Program-made: the position numbers and the translations under genes
NCBI GenBank assembly: GCA_025457885.1
Contig: JALOTN010000014.1
Location: 1-33,467, forward strand
Source: Thermoplasmatota archaeon
GTDB lineage: Archaea; Thermoplasmatota; E2; DHVEG-1
Direction of reading: 5' to 3'
Length of the DNA stretch: 33,467 nucleotides
Shown: one piece after another, positions 19,353 through 25,240 of the stretch
Layout of the letters: each line of letters opens with the position of its first letter
Position numbering within the stretch: the first letter of the stretch is position 1
Notes under the pieces: model-generated
Databases searched by the model: none
What the model was told of the DNA's origin: nothing
The model's input: only the letters and a program-made list of their open reading frames with translations

Positions 19353-19823
19353 TTATGATGAGTGGTTGTTTCTGAGGGTGTTGATTCGTTCTTTCATGTG
19401 GTGATAGTGTGTCCCCATCCAATAATATTTTTTGCAGGTGGGGCAGGTCCAGAACGTGTCGTGGCTTTGGTATATTTTTTCTGGGATTTTGTTTTTGAGT
19501 TCCTCTTTGGGAATCAAGTGGAGTGGGGTGTTGCAGAGGGTACAACGAGTGAGGAAGAGGGTCTCATCAGGAGGGATCTTTTGTAATATGAGTCGAAGTT
19601 GTTCTGCTAGGTCGGTCGTCTGGATTTCTAGGATAGGGATGAGTGATTTTTTTGCCTGCATGAGTAATGCATGGTCTCGTGAGAGAAGGAGTCGTTTTTC
19701 ATTGCGAGCAACCTGAAGGATGTCCTTGTCGTTCATCATCTCGTTTGGATAAAAGGTATCATACCCAAAAATCCGTAGCCATGTTGCAAGAGAGCCAAGC
19801 ATGTGATCGCACAGGAGGTTCAT
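19353..19823 (-). CDS. Mut7-C (COG1656) PIN-like RNase domain protein with zinc ribbon
   Basis: 156 residues. The N-terminal PIN-like fold shows the acidic set Asp6 (LLCDHMLGSLATWLR), Asp32/Asp34 (NDKDIL) and Asp50 (LLLSRDHAL), consistent with a metal-dependent nuclease centre. The C-terminal zinc ribbon has Cys94, Cys97 (CTLC) and Cys127, Cys130 (CPTC). This is the stand-alone archaeal form of the domain found at the C-terminus of Mut-7 proteins; RNase activity is predicted for the family. Start at ATG 19823 gives the usual N-terminus; no good ribosome binding site is visible. It may read through from the beta-helix gene upstream (56-base gap). Confidence 0.85.
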   Translation of the reverse strand: MNLLCDHMLGSLATWLRIFGYDTFYPNEMMNDKDILQVARNEKRLLLSRDHALLMQAKKSLIPILEIQTTDLAEQLRLILQKIPPDETLFLTRCTLCNTPLHLIPKEELKNKIPEKIYQSHDTFWTCPTCKKYYWMGTHYHHMKERINTLRNNHSS

Positions 19824-19879
19824 TGAAAGGGATATCGGAGTGGAGGATTTTGGTTTTTCTGATACGAGGTTTGCAGGGA

Positions 19880-21679
19880 TCAGAGATATTTTCTGACATC
19901 AAGCTGGTCATAGTTGGGGTTTCCAGCGTTATCGTATGCAATCACGATGATACTGTGTTTCCGCATGAAGAGATATGGTTGGCTCCATTCCCAGCTATAG
20001 GGGGGTTGGGTGTCCGTGTATTGGGGGTTGACTGAATCATCGATGAGGAATTCGACACGTTCAATCCCTGAGCCTGCATCGGTAGCTTCTACATCGATGG
20101 TGATAGGACCATAGATCAGTGTTTTTTTCTTGATTACCCCTGAGAGGAGGTGAAGACCCCAGAGGTATACGCCGGTGCTGGGGCTTTGGATCTGCACCAC
20201 CGGTGGGGTGGTATCTACCTCAGAGTAGGGTTCCATGAGGGGATATCGATCGGTGTTTATCCCATCAAGAATCGCATAGGGGATATCTCCGATGCCGTCT
20301 CCATCCTCATCAAAACCGGTGTAGTCACTCCAGTAGTTCCCCCCGGAGGGGTATCCGTCATCCCAGATGTTTGCTGCATCATCGTATGCCTGATGGCGGT
20401 TTGCTTTGAAGTTGTTGTGATACAGGTAATTATTCGAAGAATCAATGATGCCTATCCCAGCGTAGAAGCTATTGGACAGGGTGTTTCGAAGGATGTAGTT
20501 TCCCAAACAACCTGGTTTCAAGGTAATGCCATTCCATCCACTGTCGGAGATTTTATTATCAAGTATCTGGGTGTTCTGAGTATTTTGTTTTAGGATGATT
20601 CCTTGGAAGTTTGCATAAATTGTGTTTTGTTGAATGACACAATGATTCCTATTGACGATAATCCCTGCATTAGTTTCTCCAGTCCCGCTCTGTTTGATCA
20701 TGAATCCAGTGATAGTGACATTATCGGCACAAATGGTGACGACATCACCAGAAAATCTCCCATCGATAATCGCGGAGTCATCAAAAACGCTGACGAGGGT
20801 GATCGATTTGGTGATGAGGAGATGCTCCCAAAAGACTCCTTTGCTTATTACAAGCTCATGGCCATTCAGGGTGTCGGGGTCATCGATTCCAGCTTGAATC
20901 GATAGGAAATTCTCATGTGTGTCGGTGTTGCGGATAGTACCATAGGGGTGGAGAAGGGGATAGCGGTCTGCTGAGCCATTTCCCGTAGGATAGGGGGTGT
21001 CACCAATCCCGTCTTCATCGGCATCGGTTGGTTCGTAATCATCCCAGTAGTTTCCACCAGTGGGATACCCTGCATCCCAGTTATTCCCTGTAGGGGCATC
21101 GAACGCCTGATAAAAATTTTCAAGGATATTGTTGTGATAAATCGTATTGTTTGTTCCTTCAAGGATGCAGATTCCATAGTAATTATTATCCTCTATGATG
21201 TTGTTCACAATCGTATTGTAAGGGGTATGGATCAAGATTCCTGCATTGTTTGGATTACTCCCGCAATGGGTGATGGTAAAACCAGAGATTGTTACTCCTT
21301 CTGCGATGATCTTTATAACGGTTCCGAAATCATCCCCGGTGATTTCCGTGCTACCTGGTGCTTCAGCGACGAGTTCAAGGGAGACAGATATGACGATGTT
21401 TTCTACATACTGCCCGTTGAAGACCAAGACGGTATCTCCACCGACTGCGTGATCGATTCCATCCTGGATGAATTGGTAGGGGTTCTCTATACTGCCGTCC
21501 CAGGGTCCATCGATGTTACTGTCATCCACATAGATAGTGGATCCTCCCTTGGAAGTCTGGTATCCATTTTTTTGAAGATCGCCTAAAAGGGTTGCTGACC
21601 CAGGGATGATAAACAAACTTGCTATGATGAGCACGAACATGGTTCGATAGATAGGGTTGTTCTGATGTTTTTCTTCCAT
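19880..21679 (-). CDS. Secreted NosD-like right-handed beta-helix protein
   Basis: 599 residues. Signal peptide about 11-31 (MFVLIIASLFIIPGSATLL), then TIYVDDSNIDGPWDGS, a common N-terminal strand of archaeal surface beta-helices. About 100-200 and 295-425 are parallel beta-helix (PbH1/NosD) turns rich in NNTI, GI and N ladders (NNAGILIHTPYNTIVNN, NYLYHNNF). Two copies of a calcium-loop-like insert follow the helices: GGNYWDDY then DADEDGIGDTPY, and GGNYWSDY then DEDGDGIGDIPY. The last ~110 residues are an Ig-like domain (GPITIDVEATDAGSGIERVEF). Such proteins bind or cleave polysaccharides or act as surface structures; no catalytic site is assigned. Start ATG 21679 is preceded by GGAGG. It lacks the FPxAFP tail. 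Confidence 0.82.
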   Translation of the reverse strand: MEEKHQNNPIYRTMFVLIIASLFIIPGSATLLGDLQKNGYQTSKGGSTIYVDDSNIDGPWDGSIENPYQFIQDGIDHAVGGDTVLVFNGQYVENIVISVSLELVAEAPGSTEITGDDFGTVIKIIAEGVTISGFTITHCGSNPNNAGILIHTPYNTIVNNIIEDNNYYGICILEGTNNTIYHNNILENFYQAFDAPTGNNWDAGYPTGGNYWDDYEPTDADEDGIGDTPYPTGNGSADRYPLLHPYGTIRNTDTHENFLSIQAGIDDPDTLNGHELVISKGVFWEHLLITKSITLVSVFDDSAIIDGRFSGDVVTICADNVTITGFMIKQSGTGETNAGIIVNRNHCVIQQNTIYANFQGIILKQNTQNTQILDNKISDSGWNGITLKPGCLGNYILRNTLSNSFYAGIGIIDSSNNYLYHNNFKANRHQAYDDAANIWDDGYPSGGNYWSDYTGFDEDGDGIGDIPYAILDGINTDRYPLMEPYSEVDTTPPVVQIQSPSTGVYLWGLHLLSGVIKKKTLIYGPITIDVEATDAGSGIERVEFLIDDSVNPQYTDTQPPYSWEWSQPYLFMRKHSIIVIAYDNAGNPNYDQLDVRKYL

Positions 21680-21787: not shown

Positions 21788-22894
21788 TCAAAGGTTGACG
21801 AATCGTCCGTTCTTATAAATCAGCTCATTATCTGCATAAACTTCTCCATTTTTCCGCATATCACAAACCATATCCCAATGCAGACTCGAGATATTTTTAC
21901 TGCGGGTCTCCGGAAAGCCACTACCCACTGCAAGATGGATCGTCCCACCGATTTTCTCATCGAACAGGGTGTTTTTCGTAAATCGTTTCACCCCGTAATT
22001 CGTCCCGAATGCGAACTCACCTAACCTTCTTGCCCCAGGGTCAGTATCAAGCATTGCATTGAGAAATTCTTTTCCTTTTGACGCCTCGGCTTTCACCACA
22101 ACCCCTTTTTTAAACCAGAGTTGTATGTCATTGACCTCCCGACCATTATAGGAATCGGGGAAGGAATAGCTGATGTGTCCTTCAGTCGCATTCTCGACTG
22201 GCCCAGTGAATACTTCACCGTCGGGGAAGTTTTCCTTTCCGGAGCAGTTAATCCAGATTCTGTCAGTAACCGACATAGACAAATCAGTGTCTTTTGCATA
22301 CACATGAATGGTTTTTCTTGTGGCAAGCATCCTACGGATCTTCTCCTGTTCCTTGTGGACGGTCTGCCAGTATTTGATTGGGTTTTTTGCATTGACGTGG
22401 GCTGCGTCGAAAACAAATTTTTCATAGTCTGTGAGGGACATCTCTGCATCCTGAGCTTGGGCTTGGGTTGGGTACTGGGTGACGCACCAGCGGAGCTCTT
22501 TTTGTGCTGCTCGTTTGTTGAATATTTCATGTAGTTCATGATGGGCACTATTGCTGATCGCTTGTTTTTTCGGATCGATGTTGGTCATGTTTCTAGTATT
22601 CTCAGGGCTTAGGATGGCCAGGCTTGCATCAATTTGCTGGATTTCGAATTTGCTGAGTGGTGAGACGTATTTGAGTTGTTGGGTTGTCGCATGTTGATAG
22701 TAACTCTCTGCGAGTCCATCGATGCCGATGTGGGTGAAGGGATGGGCACCAATCTTGACCGCTTGACGGTAGACCTCCTGTATCAATGGTGCTGCTAGAT
22801 AACTACCGGAGATACGGAAGAGATCGTTTTTCTGTAGGTTTAATGAATATGTAGTTAAAATCGTGGCAAGGTTCTCTAATCGTTTGTCTATCAT
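21788..22894 (-). CDS. M29 family metallo-aminopeptidase
   Basis: 368 residues from ATG 22894 (MIDKRLENLATILTTYSL, the usual M29 start); the frame is open upstream to 23038 but overlaps the transporter gene. Removes N-terminal amino acids from peptides using two metal ions, in the cytoplasm. Metal ligands by motif and spacing are Glu227 (GEVFTGP), Glu293 (LGEFAFGTN), His320 (GTIHLAVG), His339 and Asp341 (LHWDMV). The position that is Tyr355 in Staphylococcus AmpS is Phe327 here (GSGF). Third gene of the RAM - RAM transporter - aminopeptidase operon (55-base gap), which links it to amino-acid sensing and export or uptake. Confidence 0.87.
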   Translation of the reverse strand: MIDKRLENLATILTTYSLNLQKNDLFRISGSYLAAPLIQEVYRQAVKIGAHPFTHIGIDGLAESYYQHATTQQLKYVSPLSKFEIQQIDASLAILSPENTRNMTNIDPKKQAISNSAHHELHEIFNKRAAQKELRWCVTQYPTQAQAQDAEMSLTDYEKFVFDAAHVNAKNPIKYWQTVHKEQEKIRRMLATRKTIHVYAKDTDLSMSVTDRIWINCSGKENFPDGEVFTGPVENATEGHISYSFPDSYNGREVNDIQLWFKKGVVVKAEASKGKEFLNAMLDTDPGARRLGEFAFGTNYGVKRFTKNTLFDEKIGGTIHLAVGSGFPETRSKNISSLHWDMVCDMRKNGEVYADNELIYKNGRFVNL

Positions 22895-22949
22895 AGGGTT
22901 TTCCCAGATTGAGAAACATATGAGCTCATAAAAGGGTTTCCTGGGAGTC

Positions 22950-24203
22950 TTATATTTTCTCCCAGTCTTTGAGCACGGATTCCCAGTGGTATTTCTTAAT
23001 TGTCTCGATTTCCTCGATTTTTCTGATAATCCGCTCATAGCCCTTCAGGAGGGTTCGGGTGGAGACTTTGACTATGAAATCGTATTTCCCGGAGGTGACG
23101 GAGACGTGGGAGACGCCCCGGATGTCCCAGAGTTTCAGCATGGTCTCTTTTATTGGTGTACCGGGTTTGACAGTGATGAAGATGTATGATTTCACGACCG
23201 TGAGTGCGAAGGAGATGATACCCATGACGATCAAGACTAGTCCGATGACTTTGATGATGAGCATGACGGGGTCGGTGGAAAATTCAGTGATGACTCCCAG
23301 TTGGATCAGCAGGATTGAGAAGGGGATGGCAAAGATAATCGTTGAGGCACGGATTGCGTTGTTGACGCTGGCTTTCCCCAGTCCGAGTGAACGGATGTAG
23401 AGAACGTAGGAGAAGAATGTTGTTCCCATGGTCAGTACCAGGAGAAGGAAATAATAGGGGTCAAGAGAGGTGACAAAACCAGTGATGAGATGATTTCCGC
23501 TTGTGAAGATGTCGTAGATGAGAAGGAGCAGGGCGGTAAAGAGGCAGGAAAAAAAGACGTTCCAGAATCGGATGTTGATGGAATCATTGGGTCGGTTGTG
23601 GATCTTCATGATTTTTAATTTTCTTTGGTAGATGGAAAAAATCGCCCAGGTGGGGTTGACAACGAGGAAGACGATGATGATTGGGAAGAGTTGGAATTCC
23701 CCGGTCAGACTGATGGAGGCAAGGATTGCTCCGAAGGTGACGATGACGGAGGATTGTACCTCCACAAGAGTGGGGACGTCCTTTTCAGTGATGGATTCCA
23801 TAAGCAGGAGGTAAAGGATGACGATTTGGGAAAAGGAGAGGATCACACTGGGGTCTTGGACGGTGGAGATAATCGCACAGTATCCGACGGTGTTGATGGC
23901 GTTGACTAAACCGGCGATGAGATGATATTTCATCTCATTTTTTTGTACAATGCGGATTTGTTTGAAGGAGGGGTCCAGGATTTTTGCACCCAGACTTTCT
24001 CCTTTGATTTTTATAGAAAGGATTAGGGTGATAAGAAGGGTAATGATTACGCCGACGAAGAATAGAGAAAATGCAAACGCCCAGGGGTCGGTTTTGAACA
24101 CGGGAAGGCTACCAACAAAGCTGTCAATTCCGGTGACTGCTGCGGCAATAACTGATGACGTGATCGCCAGGAGATAGAAGAGATATTTTTTCCTAATGAT
24201 CAT
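22950..24203 (-). CDS. EamA-type 10-TM transporter fused to a C-terminal AsnC/Lrp ligand-sensing (RAM) domain
   Basis: 417 residues. About ten TM helices fill residues 7-335 in the two-fold arrangement of the drug/metabolite superfamily (for example YLFYLLAITSSVIAAAVTG, ASTIIFAIPFSILLIQLGV, LVLIVMGIISFALTVV). EamA members of this size include amino-acid exporters. Residues 340-413 are a typical RAM domain: YIFITVKPG, then GVSHVSVTSGKYDFIVKV with Gly372 and Tyr374-Asp375, then IRKIEEIETIKKY. In Lrp/AsnC regulators this domain binds amino acids at a dimer interface and assembles octamers. Placed after TM10 it should be cytosolic and could gate transport by amino-acid level. The upstream gene is a stand-alone RAM protein (12-base gap); the downstream gene is an M29 aminopeptidase. 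Transport direction and substrate are inference. Confidence 0.85.
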   Translation of the reverse strand: MIIRKKYLFYLLAITSSVIAAAVTGIDSFVGSLPVFKTDPWAFAFSLFFVGVIITLLITLILSIKIKGESLGAKILDPSFKQIRIVQKNEMKYHLIAGLVNAINTVGYCAIISTVQDPSVILSFSQIVILYLLLMESITEKDVPTLVEVQSSVIVTFGAILASISLTGEFQLFPIIIVFLVVNPTWAIFSIYQRKLKIMKIHNRPNDSINIRFWNVFFSCLFTALLLLIYDIFTSGNHLITGFVTSLDPYYFLLLVLTMGTTFFSYVLYIRSLGLGKASVNNAIRASTIIFAIPFSILLIQLGVITEFSTDPVMLIIKVIGLVLIVMGIISFALTVVKSYIFITVKPGTPIKETMLKLWDIRGVSHVSVTSGKYDFIVKVSTRTLLKGYERIIRKIEEIETIKKYHWESVLKDWEKI

Positions 24204-24215
24204 GTTTTCGTCTCA

Positions 24216-24458
24216 TTATTGTAGGCTGATTTCTTTTTCGATGATTTGGGTGGTGGTTTTAGTGACTCCTTCGATCATCTGGATTTGATCGGTGACGTTG
24301 AGGAGTTCTTCGAGGTTTTTTACTTGGGCTCTGATGACGATATCGTATTCTCCTGCGATGATGGAGATTTTTGCTACGTTGTCTAGTTGTCTCATTTCCT
24401 TTATTGCTTTATCAGTTTTTCCAGGTAGCATTGTGATGAGAATGTACGCACTTATCAT
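24216..24458 (-). CDS. Stand-alone AsnC/Lrp-type RAM domain protein
   Basis: 80 residues, the whole length being one RAM (AsnC_trans_reg) domain without a DNA-binding part. It shares the pattern of the transporter's tail: YILITMLPG, then VAKISIIAGEYDIVIRA (the G-x-Y-D ligand turn) and IQMIEGVTKT. Stand-alone RAM proteins in archaea bind amino acids and can mix with full-length Lrp proteins or act as enzyme regulators. Start ATG 24458 is preceded by GGTGAAG. First gene of the operon with the RAM-fused transporter, so hetero-assembly with that domain is a reasonable idea. Confidence 0.87.
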   Translation of the reverse strand: MISAYILITMLPGKTDKAIKEMRQLDNVAKISIIAGEYDIVIRAQVKNLEELLNVTDQIQMIEGVTKTTTQIIEKEISLQ

Positions 24459-24712
24459 AGTTCTTCACCCATCTTCCACGCGGAATATTACCCCTTGGTA
24501 TAAAGTTTCCTGTATATGAGTATGTTGTGGAGAAGGATTGACTTGAGAGGAATATTTTCGTTAATGATTGTATTGTTTTCGCGAGAGGATTCTTTGGAAA
24601 AAAGTGATAAGAGATTTTTTCAAATATTTTTGGGAAATTATGATGAAAAATATCGATAGATATACTTATTAAGGAATAAAACTATGTCAAAGTTGAAAGC
24701 GGGAGTGAAAAA
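24459..24712. promoter_or_regulatory. Divergent promoter region between the RAM operon and the Lrp gene, with an AT-rich inverted repeat
   Basis: For the minus operon, ACTTTATACC lies at 24493-24502, about 40 bases before ATG 24458. For the plus gene, ATATACTTA (about 24659-24667) lies about 45 bases before ATG 24713, and GGGAGTGA precedes the start. Just upstream of that box is a perfect inverted repeat, ATATTTTT (24624-24631) and AAAAATAT (24646-24653), with a 14-base spacer. AT-rich dyads are typical Lrp-family operators, so this may be where the adjacent regulator binds. Confidence 0.4.
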
Positions 24713-25240
24713 ATGTCTAAAAGTAGTAAGGATCAGATGGGTTTAGATGAAAAAAAGGTCCTCTCCGAGCTTGTGAAAAATTCGAATAAGAACATCGAGA
24801 CGATCGCGAAGTTGGTTGGTTTTTCGAAGCAGAAAACCTGGAGAATCATTAAGCGTTTGGAATCAAAGGAACTAATCTGGGGATATACTGCGATTTTCGA
24901 TGAGGAGAAAATGGGTTTGAAGCATTTTATGGTCTTGATAAAACGTTCGATGAAACGACTTGATGAATCAACGATTAATAAAATTGTAAGTAGAAAACTT
25001 GAGGATGTTATTAAAGAGTTAGGGATTACGATTGAAAGTAGTTCGTATGTTCATGGTGACTTTGATTGGATTCTTACGTTTACCGCAAAGGATATTGTTC
25101 AGGCGAAGAAGTTTTCTGATGCATTGGTGATGTTTCATCCTGGAGTAATTGATAATATCTCAATTGTTGAGACATTGATTTATATTAAAAAACATTATAT
25201 ATTAAATCCCGAGAAGGCTCGGTTGAAGGAATTTTTATAG
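24713..25240 (+). CDS. Lrp/AsnC family transcriptional regulator
   Basis: 175 residues. An N-terminal winged helix-turn-helix at about 10-65 (LDEKKVLSELVKNSNKN, IAKLVGFSKQKTWRIIKRLE, ELIWGYTAIFDEEKMG) is the standard AsnC-type DNA-binding unit. The rest is RAM-like but divergent and about 20 residues longer than usual: HFMVLIKRSMKRLDES, then SSYVHGDFDWILTFTAKDI (the G-D-F-D ligand turn) and the final basic stretch KARLKEFL. Likely senses an amino acid and controls the divergent RAM - transporter - aminopeptidase operon as well as itself. Ribosome binding site GGGAGTGA lies 5 bases before ATG. Confidence 0.87.
   Translation: MSKSSKDQMGLDEKKVLSELVKNSNKNIETIAKLVGFSKQKTWRIIKRLESKELIWGYTAIFDEEKMGLKHFMVLIKRSMKRLDESTINKIVSRKLEDVIKELGITIESSSYVHGDFDWILTFTAKDIVQAKKFSDALVMFHPGVIDNISIVETLIYIKKHYILNPEKARLKEFL

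Follow-up and report, generated by a model that had tools for sequence, protein, structure and literature searches.

Control of transporters after translation, exerted by a linked sensor protein or by an extra domain, is known from GlnK-AmtB and MetNI (PMC10710835, PMC3831643). RAM domains form dimers and higher assemblies in which amino acids are bound between subunits, and different RAM proteins can mix in vitro, as in the hetero-octamer of DM1 and FL11; the RAM effectors known as of 2010 were all amino acids, DM1 responding to 2-oxoglutarate too (PMC2995911). Archaeal stand-alone RAM proteins were recognised two decades ago, and their role in physiology has been called unclear (PMC2995911). 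The genes considered here encode an 80-residue stand-alone RAM protein and a transporter of ten transmembrane (TM) helices that carries a RAM domain as its C-terminal tail. They lie in a 33,467-nucleotide stretch (the window), contig JALOTN010000014.1 of assembly GCA_025457885.1 from a Thermoplasmatota archaeon, together with a gene for an M29 aminopeptidase and a divergent gene for an Lrp-like regulator (Table 1). The assembly is 2.07 Mb in size and 92% complete, and the window is its contig C2.

The conserved unit at this locus is the gene pair, the 80-residue RAM gene followed by the gene for the RAM-tailed 10-TM transporter. Occurrence was surveyed in a draw of 293 genomes from the phylum Thermoplasmatota, in which families (f), genomes (G), loci (L) and contigs (C) were labelled by number, G000 being the window's genome, f1 its family and f2 a sister family. 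The transporter was detected in 71 of the 293 genomes and an orthologue of the RAM subunit in 74, sets that mostly coincide, and the pair is found in eight families (f1, f2, f4, f5, f10, f11, f17 and f27); all 11 f1 genomes that are at least 90% complete carry the transporter system. A single contig scan that bears on spread beyond the phylum yielded six relatives, all of them close. The upstream count took in loci with over 250 bases of sequence before the transporter, 67 in all, and in 66 of these the RAM gene immediately precedes the transporter (65 by script, plus the f10 locus L058). The two genes overlap by exactly 4 bp in 50 loci, the remaining gaps being between -1 and 24 bases. Such near-invariant pairing far exceeds chance adjacency, and a shared function is therefore likely. 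Only one intact transporter has no RAM gene upstream, the paralogous extra copy of G014 (L053); the glycine of G-x-Y-D is missing from its tail, which also has the longest branch (1.26) of the tail tree. Mean identity to the window across relatives is 56% for the RAM subunit, 53% for the membrane part and 57% for the tail, so that the three are equally conserved. In the tree the transporter tails form one clade (support 100/99) separate from the subunits, which indicates joint inheritance of the two RAM domains from a time before these families diverged. Comparison with the close relative L079 gave ratios of nonsynonymous to synonymous substitution of 0.04 for the RAM gene, 0.06 for the transporter and 0.05 for the M29 gene, and all three are under purifying selection. 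At L058 (G228, C12) an intact RAM gene is followed by a fragmented transporter, interrupted by in-frame TAG stops and a shift of frame, reflecting either decay or an assembly error.

Table 1. Coordinates of the genes and upstream elements discussed, in window positions
Feature	Position	Strand	Remark
M29 aminopeptidase, 368 aa	21788..22894	-	third operon gene in the window's lineage
Transporter with C-terminal RAM tail	22950..24203	-	second operon gene
Stand-alone RAM protein, 80 aa	24216..24458	-	first operon gene
16-base element AATATTCCGCGTGGAA	24474..24489	-	where transcription is expected to start; conserved within the genus of the window
BRE/TATA-like promoter GGAAACTTTATA	24499..24510	-	some 41 nt upstream of the start codon of RAM
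Lrp-like helix-turn-helix (HTH) regulator, 175 aa	24713..25240	+	divergent neighbour

An AlphaFold2 model of the transporter, built on an alignment of 59 relatives (mean pLDDT 80, pTM 0.74), contains ten TM helices followed by a RAM fold, the C-terminal tail comprising residues from about 336 to 409. When the model was compared with the PDB by Foldseek, the top ranks were all DMT carriers, among them LicB (7paf, E=1.2e-5), the CMP-sialic acid transporter (CST), the triose-phosphate translocator (TPT) and YddG (5i20), with TM-scores by target of 0.56-0.83; behind these carriers came Lrp/AsnC structures, which match the tail. No Pfam EamA profile was reported above cut-off in the window transporter, and at E<=0.1 the profile was found in 12 of the 59 relatives (best 1.9e-7); by its predicted fold the transporter is placed as a distant DMT family, not in the EamA family proper. 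The model also suggests, by fold, two homologous 5-TM halves; comparison of profiles of the two halves gave no match (probability 0.2%). The window's tail, searched alone, matches PF01037 (AsnC_trans_reg) with E=3.3e-5 and 24.1 bits, 0.9 bit under the cut-off of 25, and scored 27.8 bits in a genome scan; the domain was found in 58 of the 59 relatives (best 4.8e-10), and within its G-x-[YF]-D motif G372 and D375 are each kept in 58 of 59. Loops predicted to lie inside hold 10 K/R residues and those outside one, a bias that by the positive-inside rule places the RAM tail in the cytosol. The best-conserved positions outside the helices fall in two cytosolic loops, G72, D77, P78 and F80 between TM2 and TM3, and R194, N206, D207, N210 and R212 around the TM6-TM7 loop, which could possibly constitute a docking or gating surface.

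The stand-alone protein is a typical RAM of its kind. It matches PF01037 with E=1e-12 (48.2 bits against the cut-off of 25), and its nearest solved structures are the stand-alone RAMs 2zbc, 2cvi and 2e1a (profile match E about 1e-13). It was modelled tethered to the transporter, by an artificial read-through in which residues took the place of the two stop codons that separate the genes, and in that model it has beta-alpha-beta-beta-alpha-beta secondary structure and fits 2djw_H at 1.2 Å and 2e1a at 1.5 Å. No description of a RAM-tailed DMT carrier was found in the open-access literature searched, which is weak evidence, and no proof, of its being undescribed. Several further stand-alone RAMs are encoded in G000 away from the RAM-tailed transporter. 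At one such place (L124:5088-6371, on C72) two of them flank an L-asparaginase-like gene beside two Lrp genes, and one of the two is the closest paralogue of the transporter's RAM subunit.

The minus-strand operon has intergenic gaps of 12 and 55 bases, and 254 bases separate the RAM gene from the divergent Lrp-like gene. An earlier note on this DNA, in which the places and strands of the genes, both small gaps and the divergence of the Lrp gene were all correctly given, had joined the four genes in one unit; when the gene order was followed across Thermoplasmatota relatives, the RAM/transporter pair was kept and the four-gene version proved to be scattered. The place that it gave to M29 was borne out for the window's lineage. 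Its circuit, in which secreted proteases would feed amino-acid sensing at three levels, is conjectural. Where enough downstream sequence is available, M29 follows the pair in 27 of 39 f1 loci and two of four f2 loci, and of the 29 full-length copies of this M29 subfamily in the class 28 are linked to the transporter, the sole unlinked copy being in G094. M29 was absent from the pair neighbourhoods in f4, f5, f11, f17 and f27 and was accordingly rejected as a universal member; it is a lineage-specific third gene, co-inherited with the pair. Its product, which very likely starts at the ATG at 22894 rather than in the longer open reading frame from 23038, matches PF02073 with E=3e-92 and has as structural kin the aminopeptidases AmpS, PepS and AmpT (1zjc, 4icq, 2ayi). 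Residues E227, E293, H320, H339 and D341, presumably the metal ligands as in AmpT/AmpS, are invariant in 19 relatives. Position 327, which we take to be near the metal site in those enzymes, is Y in most relatives and F in the window, as in two more of the 19. Throughout the genus two genes are found together behind M29, one encoding a NosD/beta-helix protein that includes an Ig-like Big_7 domain and the other an RNase domain of the Mut7-C type (19353-21679 in the window).

The closest named relatives of the window's genome ('Euryarchaeota archaeon', 'Thermoplasmata archaeon' and 'Thermoplasmatales archaeon SM1-50') are assumed here to belong to the DHVEG-1/MBG-D (Thermoprofundales) group. MBG-D/Thermoprofundales are peptide-degrading benthic archaea, and the highly expressed peptidases of one published bin include an M29 aminopeptidase, not necessarily that of the window (PMC6461988).

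Gene linkage, translational coupling, the DMT fold, the RAM tail and its cytosolic side, and the conserved promoter described below all have computational support. By analogy with GlnK-AmtB and MetNI, we lean slightly towards a reading in which RAM tail and RAM subunit together form a cytosolic amino-acid sensor that would gate a small-metabolite DMT carrier after translation. The operon of RAM, transporter and M29 would then encode a carrier whose activity is set by the cytosolic amino-acid level, and the stand-alone RAM, made in equal measure from an overlapping gene, would serve this transporter specifically as a regulatory subunit, joining the tail to complete a dimer or larger assembly of RAM domains. 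Binding of an amino acid between the RAM domains could alter this assembly and so open or close the carrier. In the lineage of the window, the M29 aminopeptidase, cytosolic and co-expressed, would free amino acids from imported peptides, which makes an amino acid, or a product of one, the likeliest cargo. Export of cargo in excess is the direction preferred here, because the cytosol is where both sensor and aminopeptidase act; import under feedback inhibition (trans-inhibition), taken to be less likely, fits the anatomy just as well. The near-constant co-encoding of RAM-tailed transporter and free RAM suggests that the cell tunes the transporter directly, not only via genes. A more specific version, in which the covalent RAM on the DMT carrier is a half-sensor completed by the separate subunit, with an amino-acid site only at the tail-subunit interface that directly gates transport, is put forward tentatively, as a proposal somewhat short of even chances.

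Some observations count against the sensor-gated amino-acid carrier. The tethered model gave no evidence of contact between subunit and transporter: it folded both parts, with a pTM of 0.66, below the 0.74 of the transporter alone, a disordered joint and a subunit that was not confidently placed. The third genes of other lineages, MTAP in f4 and f5 and PurF in most f1, point to purine or methionine metabolism as much as to peptides. In f4 a gene resembling S-methyl-5'-thioadenosine phosphorylase (MTAP) overlaps the transporter by 1-4 bp in 11 loci (L040, L046-L049, L051, L052 and L074-L077), and in f5 such a gene lies 34-35 bp past the transporter in three loci and farther away in a fourth (L044, L071, L073 and L078). 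These genes match the NCBIfam MTAP model with E about 1e-76, just under its cut-off, and the resulting RAM-transporter-MTAP unit suggests that in those families the pair is connected with the salvage of methylthioadenosine or methionine. PurF lies downstream of the pair in 25 f1 loci, and across most of f1, the window's own genus apart, it is the next gene or stands behind M29 and a NosD-like gene; a hydrolase of S-adenosylmethionine (SAM) is encoded nearby in 15 loci. Since MTAP or PurF takes the place beside the pair in other families, the peptide-feeding link is not general, and since third genes vary by lineage, cargo and ligand cannot be read from M29 alone. In a series of f1 loci including L054, L060, L069 and L090, the pair, with or without M29 and NosD, is followed by PurF and a gene for a small HTH protein, after which an opposite-strand zinc-ribbon gene and the SAM hydrolase (DUF62) often follow.

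It could accordingly be argued that the pair is a carrier of nucleosides, nucleobases, methylthioadenosine or SAM-related compounds, with RAM domains that sense methionine or glutamine so as to match purine or methionine-salvage flux, M29 being a late addition. The tight coupling to MTAP in f4 and its proximity in three f5 loci, the frequency of PurF and SAM hydrolase, and the presence of DMT-fold nucleotide and nucleotide-sugar carriers among the structural matches all speak for this alternative, which is nevertheless considered rather unlikely. Against it, the effectors known for RAM domains are amino acids (PMC2995911), M29 is the nearer third gene in the lineage of the window, PurF often stands behind M29 and NosD, and the SAM hydrolase is several genes off. 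A link through methionine or amino-acid nitrogen would take in all of M29, MTAP and PurF, and one through purines two of the three.

The BRE/TATA-like promoter has the consensus AGATAACTTTATA, which is kept at the same place across the window's genus and other genera of the family; in other members of the genus a radical-SAM gene is directly divergent from the RAM gene and the AGATAACTTTATA promoter still precedes the latter. The element AATATTCCGCGTGGAA has a single match within two mismatches in the whole genome, about the chance expectation, and was rejected as a regulon motif; with one genomic site it would be a local element if anything, a candidate operator or leader element whose case rests on conservation between relatives. 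No RNA family was matched in the window (Rfam).

An alternative, with the Lrp-like protein of the divergent gene as amino-acid sensor and regulator of the operon and the RAM proteins as co-regulators, has parallels in the divergent Lrp gene beside an EamA-like transporter gene in PA2577/PA2576 (PMC8707732) and in the activation of neighbouring permease genes by Ss-LrpB (PMC4046817), and in L039 a different, LrpA-like gene comes after M29. This circuit is nonetheless regarded as improbable, because the Lrp-like gene adjoins the operon at two loci only, the window and L079, and the conserved promoter persists where Lrp is absent. The family has about ten copies in the window's genome and up to fifteen in others, and the eight other G000 copies considered (on C92, C75, C24, C67, C43, C63, C3 and C9) lie in varied neighbourhoods. 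A four-gene module that includes Lrp is therefore rejected on synteny, and the gene that the earlier note had counted as a member of the system is best read as a local newcomer outside it, although the protein may regulate the operon at this locus. The same note had also spoken of three RAM-bearing proteins, of which the subunit and the transporter tail match PF01037; in the Lrp-like protein Pfam reported HTH_24 (E=5.8e-7) and no RAM domain. NCBIfam Lrp matches its residues 8-150 (E=4.6e-11), and comparison of its profile with that of the RAM subunit aligned only 29 columns at 25% probability, a weak and divergent trace that hints at a degenerate RAM. It is 87% identical in protein to its L079 counterpart, and its dN/dS could not be computed because synonymous sites are saturated. 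The expanded family of 175-residue regulators carries what looks like a degenerate RAM, with an H-G-[ED]-Y-D-W motif. In 20 members sampled the recognition helix F-S-R-Q-K-V-W-R-I-I-K is nearly constant, and the paralogues may share DNA targets and differ in ligand.

Equally improbable is that the stand-alone RAM is a separate transcriptional co-regulator that mixes with full-length Lrp proteins and is merely co-expressed with the transporter, a role of the kind put forward for stand-alone RAMs generally and one that DM1-FL11 hetero-octamers (PMC2995911) and the other stand-alone RAMs of the genome might suggest, given its near-invariant pairing with one RAM-tailed transporter, the 4-bp coupling across eight families and, in L053, the single case known, the decay of the tail motif along with loss of the RAM gene.

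The near-invariant, coupled pairing suggests for stand-alone RAMs a concrete and testable job, the post-translational control of transport. It also takes a domain usually seen as part of transcription factors to the membrane, and offers a handle on the internal amino-acid balance of peptide-eating sediment archaea of the MBG-D/Thermoprofundales type. If a half-sensor is indeed completed by the subunit, stand-alone RAMs would have a first role in physiology that lies outside transcription.

Compared with known stand-alone RAMs (DM1/PH-type, STS042, 2cvi, 2zbc and 2e1a), the window's subunit has the same length and fold and likewise lacks a DNA-binding domain, but is tied by genome order to one transporter that bears a RAM of its own. 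That transporter shares with DMT/EamA-like carriers (YddG 5i20, LicB 7paf, CST and TPT) the 10-TM fold with N- and C-terminus inside, and differs from them in its C-terminal RAM sensor domain, in a conserved cytosolic TM2-TM3 loop of 25 residues and in a sequence too far removed for Pfam EamA. MetNI is an ABC importer of methionine and has no separate sensor subunit. It resembles the proposed arrangement in that its transport machinery bears a C-terminal cytosolic domain for ligand binding (PMC10710835). PA2577-PA2576 of Pseudomonas resembles the locus in that an Lrp-type gene is divergent from an EamA-like transporter gene (PMC8707732), although there the RAM is in the transcription factor only, with neither tail nor subunit, and the archaeal Lrp-like neighbour is not conserved. 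GlnK-AmtB is similar in the way it works only, GlnK being a small cytosolic sensor of ferredoxin-like alpha/beta structure that is co-encoded with its transporter almost wherever it is found (PMC3831643). Unlike GlnK-AmtB, the window pair has a RAM in place of PII and a DMT in place of an Amt carrier, and the tail of the transporter is the same sensor domain as its subunit.

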